Positions 41,051 through 50,585 of a stretch of 50,585 nucleotides of DNA are shown piece after piece (the first letter of the stretch is position 1; each line of letters begins with the position of its first letter). Where the stretch lies: positions 135,399 to 185,983 of the forward strand of contig JAFGDR010000031.1 of the NCBI GenBank assembly GCA_016932035.1, given 5' to 3'. Source of the DNA: Candidatus Cloacimonadota bacterium. GTDB lineage: Bacteria > Cloacimonadota > Cloacimonadia > JGIOTU-2. Under the pieces are notes generated by a model, which was not told the DNA's origin, ran no database searches, and worked only from the letters and a program-made list of their open reading frames with translations. The translations under genes and the position numbers were made by a program.

Positions 41051-42268
41051 ATGAGTAAATGCAGAATTCCTTTAGGACCTTTTCATCCATTGTTGGAAGA
41101 AGCGGAATTCTTTGATATAAAAGTCGAAGGTGAAAAAGTTGTTGATATTGAAATGGAAACCGGCTGGATGCACAGGGGTCATGAAAAGATCTCTGAAACC
41201 AAATCCTTTACCCAATCGATCTTCCTTGTAGAAAGAATTTGTGGAATTTGTTCGACCTCCCATCCATTCGCAGCAGTCCATGCTATGGAAGACATCGATA
41301 ATGTCGAAATACCAGAACGTGCGCAATATATACGAATTTTTATCGGAGAGATGGAACGAATCCACAGCCATCTGCTCTGGCTCGGGCTTGCTGGACATTT
41401 CATTGGATACGATACCCTTTGGATGTGGGCATGGAAATATCGCGAACCCGTTTTGCAAATATTCGAAAAAGTGTCGGGTAATAGAAATCACTATGCGATG
41501 TTCCGTGTCGGTGGTGTCGGGAGAGATTTTGATAATGATCTGATCCCTGAGATACATCCAATTCTTGATATGATCGAAAAGAAGATGCTTATGATAGCAG
41601 GCGCAGCACAAGATGATCCGGTACTTCGCTCACGTCTTAAAGGTGTCGGAGTGCTGACCAAAGAAGATGCTATAAATTACTGTGCTATTGGTCCTACAGC
41701 TCGTGCATCTGATGTTGATATAGACGTCAGACGAGATGATCCTCTTGAATATGATCTTGTAGATTTTGATGTTATCGTTTTACCGAACGGGGACGTTTAT
41801 GATAAATTAGTTGTTCGTGTACTTGAGATTATTGAATCTGTGAAAATTATCAGACAATGTCTTGACGCATTTCCAAAGATTGGTGGTGAATATATCAATA
41901 AAGTAAAACATATTTCGCCCGGAGAAGGTTGCGGAAGATACGAAGCACCACGCGGAGAAGTATTTCATTATATTAGAAGTGATGGCTCAAATCGTCCACT
42001 TCGTCATAAAGTTCGTGCTCCAAGTTTCTCAAATATTCCAACCTACAAAGCTTCGTGTGTTGGCATTCCGCTTGCAGATGCTCTTATCACACTTGCAGCT
42101 GTTGACCCATGCTACTGTTGTACCGAGCGCAGCATCCGAGTTATTGATAAAAATAATAAGAAATTAGAACATAATCTATTAACCATGTCTCGCCAAAAGA
42201 CCACACAACTCAAAAGTGACATAGTAGGAAGCGAGAAAACACCCATCGATCGAATTTTTGAAGATTAG
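41051..42268 (+). CDS. Group-4 [NiFe]-hydrogenase large (catalytic) subunit
   Basis: 405 residues. Both nickel-binding motifs are complete: RICGICSTSH (Cys64, Cys67) and DPCYCCTER (Cys354, Cys357). The protein is therefore a hydrogenase and not a NuoD subunit of complex I, which lacks them. A tail of 45 residues follows the final TER, as in large subunits that a maturation protease trims. The HycI-like gene at 48739 would be the matching protease. It catalyses reversible H2 production at the membrane arm. Confidence 0.95.
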   Translation: MSKCRIPLGPFHPLLEEAEFFDIKVEGEKVVDIEMETGWMHRGHEKISETKSFTQSIFLVERICGICSTSHPFAAVHAMEDIDNVEIPERAQYIRIFIGEMERIHSHLLWLGLAGHFIGYDTLWMWAWKYREPVLQIFEKVSGNRNHYAMFRVGGVGRDFDNDLIPEIHPILDMIEKKMLMIAGAAQDDPVLRSRLKGVGVLTKEDAINYCAIGPTARASDVDIDVRRDDPLEYDLVDFDVIVLPNGDVYDKLVVRVLEIIESVKIIRQCLDAFPKIGGEYINKVKHISPGEGCGRYEAPRGEVFHYIRSDGSNRPLRHKVRAPSFSNIPTYKASCVGIPLADALITLAAVDPCYCCTERSIRVIDKNNKKLEHNLLTMSRQKTTQLKSDIVGSEKTPIDRIFED

Positions 42269-47789: not shown

Positions 47790-48141
47790 TCTTGCAATCA
47801 ATCAGATAATTGGTTATATTATTATTTGCGGTGGTATTTTGTTCGATCTTTTTGGGGTACTGGGTCTGGTTCGTCTTCCTGATGTGTATAACAGGCTTCA
47901 GGCTGCAACGAAAAGCGTTACCTTCGGCTCTGCTGGAATTCTTATTGGTGTATTGGTATATTCAGGATTTACTGCAATGGGATTTAAAGCGCTTCTCTGT
48001 GCAATCTTTATACTTCTTACATCGCCTGTTTCTGCCCATGCTATTGCCAAAGCAGCTCATAAAGCAGGGATCAAAATGACTGATAAGACAATCATCGACC
48101 TGTATCGTCAGGATAAAGACAAGAATGAGGAACAGAAATGA
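47782..48141 (+). CDS. mrpG: MrpG/MbhC-like subunit
   Basis: 119 residues with three helices; GVLGLVRLPDVYNRLQAATKS and LTSPVSAHAIAKAAHKAG are classic MrpG segments. It completes the Mrp B-G set. It overlaps the following 4Fe-4S gene by ATGA. Confidence 0.94.
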   Translation: MHDLAINQIIGYIIICGGILFDLFGVLGLVRLPDVYNRLQAATKSVTFGSAGILIGVLVYSGFTAMGFKALLCAIFILLTSPVSAHAIAKAAHKAGIKMTDKTIIDLYRQDKDKNEEQK

Positions 48142-48749
48142 TTATTCCAAAACTTCGAGAATTAGGCGAAGCAATCGTCTCACTTTTTTCTAAACCAATC
48201 ACAAGCAAATATCCTTTTACAAAAAAACCCTATGAACCCGTTAAGCAGTTCAAAGGTAATCCAATATATAATGAAGATGAATGCGTTGGATGCGGAGCTT
48301 GCGCCCAGGTATGCCCTGCCGGTGCAATCAAAATGATCGACGAACCTGAAGAAGGCAAACGCATTATGCAGGTGAGTTATACGAATTGTATTCGATGTGG
48401 GCAATGTGAAGAACACTGTATTACTAAAAAGGGAATAAAGCTCTCTAATGAATATATAACAGCTACTTTCAGTCCTGCGTGGGAAGCCGATATGATGAGT
48501 ATTGAGAAGAAACTCATTGTCTGCCCGATCTGTGGAACAAAAATCGCAACTGAAGATCACATGAACTGGCTTATTGAAAAGATGGGTCCAAAAGCGTATG
48601 GAAATCCAAATCTTCTTGCTTTCATTCAACTTCGCTATCAGGATCTTCCGGAAGCGCACATAAAGAAAGATAAAATCAGAAGAGAAGATTATTATAAGTT
48701 AATGTGTCCACGCTGTAGGCACCAGGTTGTTGTCGAAGATGCTTTCTGA
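48138..48749 (+). CDS. NuoI/MbhN-like 4Fe-4S subunit with C-terminal zinc-ribbon-like Cys pairs
   Basis: 203 residues. Two ferredoxin motifs near the N-terminus, CVGCGACAQVCP and CIRCGQCEEHC, correspond to the NuoI/HyfH subunit that delivers electrons to the small subunit. The C-terminal half adds CPICGTKI and CPRCRHQ, two CxxC pairs about 60 residues apart that could bind zinc. The ATG overlaps mrpG. The protease ORF begins inside its last codons. Confidence 0.9.
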   Translation: MIIPKLRELGEAIVSLFSKPITSKYPFTKKPYEPVKQFKGNPIYNEDECVGCGACAQVCPAGAIKMIDEPEEGKRIMQVSYTNCIRCGQCEEHCITKKGIKLSNEYITATFSPAWEADMMSIEKKLIVCPICGTKIATEDHMNWLIEKMGPKAYGNPNLLAFIQLRYQDLPEAHIKKDKIRREDYYKLMCPRCRHQVVVEDAF

Positions 48750-49220
48750 TGAGTTGAAAAATCTATTTTCTTCAATCAAAAATAAAAATACCCTTTGCGT
48801 AGGGCTGGGAAATTATCAACGCGGCGATGATGCTGTGGGACTCTATATTGTCGACAATCTGCAGAAGAAATGTAAAAAAAAAAACTTACATATCTGATCG
48901 CAGAAACAACTCCTGAGAATTATTTGAATATCCTTACATCAACTGGTCTCGATACAATTATCTTTTTCGATGCATGCAGATTCTCCCAAAGAGAAGGTGA
49001 TGTGAAGATATTAGATGAAGAAGAGATCAGTACATTTGCTACATCAACTCATACAAGCTCACATGGATTGATAATATCATATATACATAAATTTTCAAAA
49101 GCAGTGATTTATGTTATCGGAATCTGTATTGTAAAATCTTCACACTCTCAAAATATGTCAGAGAATGTAAAAAAAAGTGCCGATGAACTTATAGGTTTAA
49201 TACAACATGCAGTATGCTGA
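48739..49220 (+). pseudogene. hycI: HycI-type hydrogenase maturation protease, frameshifted at an 11-A run
   Basis: The frame starts at ATG 48739 with LCVGLGNYQRGDDAVGLYIVD, the GxGNxxxGDDxxG motif of hydrogenase endopeptidases. It then ends at TGA 48895 (52 codons). After the A11 run (48874-48884) the family sequence continues in the -1 frame (LTYLIAETTPENYLNI, then FFDACRF and STHTSSHGL, which supply the other metal-binding Asp and His) to TGA 49218. One A fewer would give a single protein of about 160 residues. Assembly error, transcriptional slippage on the poly-A run, or true inactivation are all possible. It would trim the large subunit. Confidence 0.75.
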
Positions 49221-50585
49221 GATAATCCTAACCGGCATTGTTCAGGGCGTTGGATTCCGTCCTTTCGTAAAAAGGACAGCATTGAAGCACAATATTAAAG
49301 GATTTGTTGAAAACAGGGAATTCGGAGTGAAGATCATATCTCAGGCTTCAAAAAATACGATACAAAAATTTCTTGATGACCTATTGAACGCTGCTCCGGA
49401 CGTTTCTACGATACTTACCCATTCGATAACATTTGGTGAAACCGAAGATGTATTTAACACATTTGATATTTCTCCCAGCAAGAAAAAGGGTGAGGTATCA
49501 GCACTTATTCCACCGGATATTGCAACATGCGAGGTTTGCGCGCAGGAGATTCTTGATAAGAATGACAGGCATTATCAGTACCCATTTACTAATTGCACGA
49601 ATTGCGGTCCACGATTTTCGATCATACAAGCCATTCCTTATGATAGAAAAAACACAACCATGAAGAAATTCGTTATGTGTGATCACTGCAACAGGGAGTA
49701 TACAACCGTTACAGATAGACGTTTTCACGCACAGCCCAATGCCTGTCCAAAATGCGGTCCCGAGCTTAGACTGATAGAGATCATCGATGATGAACAAACA
49801 ATCATTGCTCAAAGAGAGCAGGCACTGGATAAAACAATATCGTTATTACAATCGGGCGAAATCGTTGCAATAAAAGGAATTGGAGGTTATCACCTTGTTT
49901 GCACTACTTTACAGCAAGAGACAGTTGATAAGTTGAGAAAGCGCAAGTACAGACCAAATAAACCATTTGCACTCATGGCACGGGATATCGAGACGGTTAA
50001 AGAATACTGTATGGTAAGCGAAGCCGAAGAACGAATGCTGACCGGTCAACAGAAACCGATCGTGTTACTCAAGAAAAAAAATGAACAGCTTGAACATGTT
50101 GCTCCCGGTGTGAAGGATCAGGGTTTTATGCTTCCGTACACACCTCTTCATTATCTTCTTTTTAAGCATTTTCGAATCCTTATCTTTACAAGCGGGAACA
50201 TTTCAGAAGAAGCGCTGGAAAACAAAGACGATAGTGCATATGAGAGACTTTTTCATATAACACCTTATTACCTTTCATACAATAGAGAAATATTCAACAG
50301 GATCGATGACTCGATCGTAACCTTTGCACATGATCAGAATATATTGATACGAAAAGCTCGTGGATTTATACCAAAACCGATCAATATAGAAAAGAGATTC
50401 GGCAAACCGCAGATATTTGCTGCAGGTGCTGATATGAAGGGTTCGTTTGGGCTAACAAAAGAGAATATATTTCTTGGCAGCCAGTACTTAGGTGATCTTG
50501 AATTCTCTTCAAATCATACTTTTTACAAAGAATCTCTTCAATATTTTAAATCGATTTTTGAGATGAATCCACAGGTTGTTGTTGC
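49207..50585 (+). CDS. hypF: Carbamoyltransferase HypF (partial, runs off right edge)
   Basis: Open frame from ATG 49207 to the window edge (459 codons). The acylphosphatase domain begins it (GIVQGVGFRPFVKRTA). Two zinc-finger Cys sets follow (CEVC with CTNCGPRF, then CDHC with CPKCGPE). The YrdC-like domain has KGIGGYHLVC and the Kae1-like part begins near AAGADMKGSFGLT. HypF makes the thiocarbamate used for the cyanide ligands of the NiFe centre. The ATG lies inside the end of hycI, so the genes are coupled. The remainder lies outside the window. Confidence 0.95.
   Translation, partial: MQYAEIILTGIVQGVGFRPFVKRTALKHNIKGFVENREFGVKIISQASKNTIQKFLDDLLNAAPDVSTILTHSITFGETEDVFNTFDISPSKKKGEVSALIPPDIATCEVCAQEILDKNDRHYQYPFTNCTNCGPRFSIIQAIPYDRKNTTMKKFVMCDHCNREYTTVTDRRFHAQPNACPKCGPELRLIEIIDDEQTIIAQREQALDKTISLLQSGEIVAIKGIGGYHLVCTTLQQETVDKLRKRKYRPNKPFALMARDIETVKEYCMVSEAEERMLTGQQKPIVLLKKKNEQLEHVAPGVKDQGFMLPYTPLHYLLFKHFRILIFTSGNISEEALENKDDSAYERLFHITPYYLSYNREIFNRIDDSIVTFAHDQNILIRKARGFIPKPINIEKRFGKPQIFAAGADMKGSFGLTKENIFLGSQYLGDLEFSSNHTFYKESLQYFKSIFEMNPQVVV

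Follow-up and report, generated by a model that had tools for sequence, protein, structure and literature searches.

A hydrogenase maturation protease gene kept out of frame at a run of eleven A residues lies near the end of the window, by which is meant the whole stretch of 50,585 nucleotides of Candidatus Cloacimonadota DNA that was analysed. The same two-frame gene recurs in each of the other seven genomes of its genus (the 'Ca. Celaenobacter' group of Cloacimonadota), giving 8/8. Judged from its sequence and conservation, it is a real, conserved, frameshift-dependent enzyme gene. A working enzyme would probably be obtainable only when the copying machinery slips at the run, and RNA polymerase slippage appears, with fair confidence, to be the most likely mechanism of decoding.

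Organization of the split gene

The split hycI-like gene occupies positions 48739-49220 (482 nt; plus strand, like all features of the window given here), and its first 11 nt, beginning with the ATG, lie within the end of the upstream gene. Starting from this ATG at 48739, the zero frame encodes 52 amino acids (48739-48897), including the first metal-ligand Asp, which lies in the motif GLGNYQRGDDAVG. Its product has the C-terminal sequence CKKKNLHI and stops at a TGA (48895-48897) 10 nt past the end of the A11 run, which itself lies at 48874-48884 and is read as TGT AAA AAA AAA AAC. The -1 frame is open from a TAA at 48873-48875 to a TGA at 49218-49220, and homology carries on there. The ORF in this frame (48876-49220, 114 codons) supplies the remainder of the protease, with metal ligands in the sequences FFDA and STHTSS, and the joined two-frame protein has 160 amino acids. 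Because the left edge of the run is spanned by the TAA of the -1 frame, the shift necessarily takes place within the run. Reading of the sequence in both frames confirmed the run and the -1 direction given in an earlier note on this DNA. The same note wrongly took ten A residues as a result that would argue against a shift; a gene with ten is still out of frame, and one with twelve (or nine) is in frame.

Runs of this length are rare in the assembly examined (2.44 Mb, 66 contigs, 95% complete). By counts obtained by subtracting overlapping matches, it has 76 A/T runs of at least 9 nt, 12 of at least 10 and exactly one of at least 11, the run at 48874-48884.

Identity of the protein and its operon

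The joined protein scores 41.9 bits against HycI (PF01750, cut-off 23) and 85.1 bits against the hydrogenase maturation protease model TIGR00072 (cut-off 47.45), which bears out the earlier proposal of a hydrogenase protease. Since it misses the cut-off of the hycI equivalog model TIGR00142 (83.9 vs 119.1 bits), the protein is classed as a HycI-like family member and not as a HycI equivalog; G008, an unsplit relative, likewise stays under this cut-off with 83.6 bits. The second part alone reaches 37.8 bits against HycI (cut-off 23), less than the joined protein, and the N-terminal fragment alone is below every Pfam cut-off. HycI of PDB entry 5zby aligns with residues 8 to 156, spanning the junction, at 2e-12. 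The two-frame homology is far beyond chance.

Three residues, D31, D78 and H105, are invariant in nine aligned homologs, both split and unsplit, and by analogy with HycI/HybD we take them to be the metal ligands. Asp31 lies before the run, Asp78 and His105 after it. With the ligands distributed over both halves, the 52-amino-acid product cannot be an active protease. The same genome also has a second, intact HycI-family protease (G000:C40:113099-113377), which probably serves another hydrogenase.

The hycI-like gene ends an Mbh/Mrp-type hydrogenase cluster of the membrane-bound kind, where it is placed between the gene for a 4Fe-4S (HycF/NuoI/MbhN-like) hydrogenase subunit (48138-48749) and hypF, which encodes a carbamoyltransferase (49207-50585, continuing beyond the window). 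In 8/8 genus members, hypF and the hycI-like gene share 14 nt, from the ATG of the former to the stop of the latter. The large subunit of the [NiFe] hydrogenase is encoded at 41051-42268. After its DPCYCCTER motif comes a C-terminal tail of about 46 amino acids, and this subunit would be the likely substrate of the protease. With reasonable probability, the gene is maintained out of frame and encodes a functional HycI-type endopeptidase for this adjacent Mbh/Mrp-type [NiFe] hydrogenase. A study of Antarctic members describes Mrp-linked hydrogenases of group 4g, which evolve H2, in several Cloacimonadota genera, and a cytoplasmic hydrogenase of the Mvh type in Ca. Celaenobacter (PMC8542988). 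The genus of the window differs in this from G015 and G016 (L003, L014), where hypF is not next to hycI and the HypF motif lies about 1 kb further on.

Conservation of the run and the offset

The genomes of the genus are Cloacimonadota MAGs from independent studies and different assemblers, and include Ca. Celaenobacter antarcticus; as members of one genus share ancestry, the eight cases are not independent. A search of relatives also found the same split in G016, which belongs to another genus of the same family. In 9/9 split genes the run begins at gene nt 136 and the break falls at the same codon; all nine have runs of A10-A12, and none (0/9) is in frame. Eight of the nine are exactly 482 nt long and keep the -1 offset. 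G005, a MAG with 6% contamination, has a different offset and is likewise out of frame. From the GLGN motif to TTPEN the distance is 103 nt in G005 and 104 nt in every gene with the -1 offset; for G003, whose motif is different, it was obtained in another way. The earlier note had proposed a check of run length in relatives, and its result, A10-A12 with two frames in every genus member, favours a real recoding site.

The length of the run varies within a constant frame. Run and spacer add up to 20 nt in 8/9 split genes (A10+10, A11+9, A12+8), and from the start of the run to the next conserved codon the sequence is A10TTTTACATAC-like, A11CTTACATAT, A11TTCACTTAT or A12TTATATAC. In the eight -1-offset genes, run length thus varies by substitution at the edge, with net indels of zero. 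Long A runs are normally prone to insertion and deletion.

Across the class (125 genomes surveyed), the homologs outside the genus and G016 are all single-frame across the site among the matches listed; the one TGA of G008 is at the normal end of the gene. Runs of at least ten A residues are present in 9/9 split genes, whereas 20/20 unsplit homologs measured have at most nine, with 7 to 9 in the unsplit genes of the family and 4 to 8 in the 15 other class homologs measured. In the protein tree the genus forms one clade and G016 groups with unsplit relatives, so that either the split had at least two origins or the relatives repaired it.

Selection and translation starts

Over the 28 pairs of genus members, pN/pS is 0.21 for the first half in the zero frame and 0.34 for the second half in the -1 frame. 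The other frames have pN/pS of 1.0 to 2.1 and 2 to 14 stops per sequence. Synonymous divergence is close to saturation, with pS of 0.63/0.81 in the deepest pair (G000 vs G003). These ratios indicate that purifying selection acts on both halves. A bias in Lys codons was considered as the only cause of the run and set aside: in the rest of the gene 25% of Lys codons are AAG, yet the three codons of the run are all AAA in 9/9 split genes, an argument that is suggestive but weak given shared ancestry.

Production of two separate proteins by reinitiation is ruled out for the eight -1-offset genes, where no start lies ahead of the conserved residues of the -1 frame. In these genes the downstream frame begins at the TAA that spans the left edge of the run, and no ATG, GTG or TTG occurs in it between the run and the LIAETTPEN block; in the gene of the window, the -1 ORF has none before 48924. 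The first downstream-frame start of G003 is at gene nt 324, past both ligands, and G016 has no start codon in this frame at all. In G005, with its other offset, the downstream frame does have start codons ahead of the run.

Proposed polymerase slippage and alternative explanations

In the proposed mechanism, RNA polymerase would slip on the run during transcription, adding or dropping A residues. Transcripts that end up one A longer (or two A residues shorter), a minority, would give the full 160-amino-acid protease, and unslipped transcripts would give the 52-amino-acid fragment, which is without two of the three metal ligands. The same protein would also result if RNA polymerase were faithful and the ribosome underwent programmed -1 frameshifting on the tandem AAA codons (A_AAA_AAA/AAC/AAT), an explanation that we consider distinctly less probable. 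The zero-frame codons are TGT AAA AAA AAA ANN (TAT as first codon in G005, ATT in G016), and all -1 cases have the A_AAA_AAN heptamer in the right phase for such a shift. Nine A residues would suffice for it, yet the runs are of 10-12, and A_AAA_AAG is a much stronger site in E. coli than A_AAA_AAC or A_AAA_AAA (review PMC5009743). By a rule that Antonov et al. proposed in 2013, orthologs that differ in offset point to transcriptional realignment, and orthologs that share one offset to ribosomal shifting (PMC3711429). The -1 offset common to 8/9 split genes is ribosomal by this rule, but the deviating offset of G005 (1/9, one MAG), which one -1 shift cannot solve, makes the rule lean towards slippage. 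Folding of the split-gene sequences revealed no downstream pseudoknot or hairpin that could stimulate ribosomal shifting. No stable or conserved RNA structure was found 3' of the site, where folding was no better than for shuffled sequences in nearly all cases; there was no consensus structure, and no SD-like motif before the site was obvious by eye. The lack of RNA structure together with the mixed offsets favours RNA polymerase slippage over ribosomal -1 frameshifting.

Other explanations locate the change in the DNA or in its assembly. Runs of 10-12 A residues are mutable and the offset of G005 differs, as could be expected of phase variation, in which replication slippage gains or loses A residues and a subpopulation is in frame. 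This is improbable, as in the comparison between species 0/9 genomes are in frame, eight share an offset despite run lengths that vary by substitution, and a cytoplasmic maturation enzyme is unlike the surface or modification genes that are usually phase-variable. A sequencing or assembly error in the homopolymer was raised in the earlier note; all named relatives are MAGs, A runs of at least ten are error-prone, and split genes occur sporadically at other A runs. Error is nevertheless very unlikely, since independent assemblies share the same position and offset with three different run lengths, and homologs with shorter runs are always intact among the matches listed. Just as little probability attaches to a dead gene, whose ancestor would have lost the protease and left the halves as relics. 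The intact paralog at C40:113099 might substitute for it, but both frames are under purifying selection at near-saturated synonymous divergence and the metal ligands are invariant.

Slippage by RNA polymerase would have a low, fixed dose of protease as its likely consequence. HypF is perhaps affected as well, because coupled ribosomes would reach the hypF start, which overlaps the hycI stop, only on slipped messages. Ribosomes that terminate at the early stop end about 310 nt before hypF, so slippage may also set the translation of HypF. The role in regulating hydrogenase maturation that the earlier note proposed is plausible. It is a tentative and rather unlikely further proposal that the obligatory out-of-frame state has lasted as long as the genus, with slippage as a built-in dose setter for the protease and, by coupling, for HypF. 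Slippage might respond to ATP supply and thereby tie hydrogenase maturation to the energy state.

Comparison with known systems

The closest parallels are found among genes decoded by slippage. tssM1 of Citrobacter rodentium also has an A11 run with an early stop just downstream and no stimulatory structure; extra A residues were measured in its mRNA, with about 20% full-length product (PMC4256274). As proposed for the present gene, the full-length form requires these extra A residues. Both forms of tssM1 are needed, in type VI secretion (PMC4256274), whereas the short form here has only a small part of the active site, and the split, which is fixed across the genus, affects a hydrogenase maturase gene. 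Like the present gene, dnaX of Thermus thermophilus (A9, transcriptional slippage) is cellular and conserved, and its long A run lies close to the frame transition. Its long product is in frame and slippage leads to the short one, whereas only slippage would make the enzyme here. IS transposases and other A-run slippage genes have their frame restored on A runs of at least 9 (Baranov 2005, PMC1088944), as proposed here; unlike slippage-decoded IS transposases (PMC1088944), the present gene is not a mobile element. With HycI/HybD-type endopeptidases (PF01750, TIGR00072) it shares a whole-protein match, the Asp/Asp/His residues and an operon with hydrogenase and hypF, but it differs from them in being read in two frames, where the unsplit class homologs use one.

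No report on the recoding of hydrogenase proteases or of hydrogenase maturation was found in the literature searched, and the gene would be a new case within a known type of recoding, that of slippage-decoded genes. To our knowledge, there are few conserved cases of a non-mobile bacterial enzyme made only through slippage. Annotation pipelines would probably treat the gene as a pseudogene and arrive at the wrong conclusion that maturation of the hydrogenase is impossible. The genus carrying the split is little known, and its eight species, with one site and three run lengths, offer a clean natural comparison of transcriptional and ribosomal recoding.

Other A runs in the genus

A total of 70 distinct runs of at least ten A residues were classified in the genus. 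Besides hycI only a few look split, and hycI is the only A-run split found conserved across the genus, the others checked being species-specific or sporadic. A-run frameshifts or errors thus occur sporadically in the genus, and the classification led to rejection of a general habit of the genome. A response regulator/PAS gene (L150, G004:C87:2391-2401) is split at A11 in one species only; in the relatives read it is intact and without a long run. A Wza-like polysaccharide export gene (L063, G005:C3:49727) is split at A10 and is intact without the run in G007 and G000; it is also broken in G006 (L193/L195, G006:C51:6621-7296), making two species. The transposase gene split at A10 in G004 (L151, G004:C104:1217) is of a kind in which slippage is often used. 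L133 (G000:C25:7750) was rejected as a split, as a new gene starts there with ATG AGA AAA AAA AAA. This gene is Radical-SAM-like, with the A10 run after its start codon, and begins inside the end of a TPR gene.
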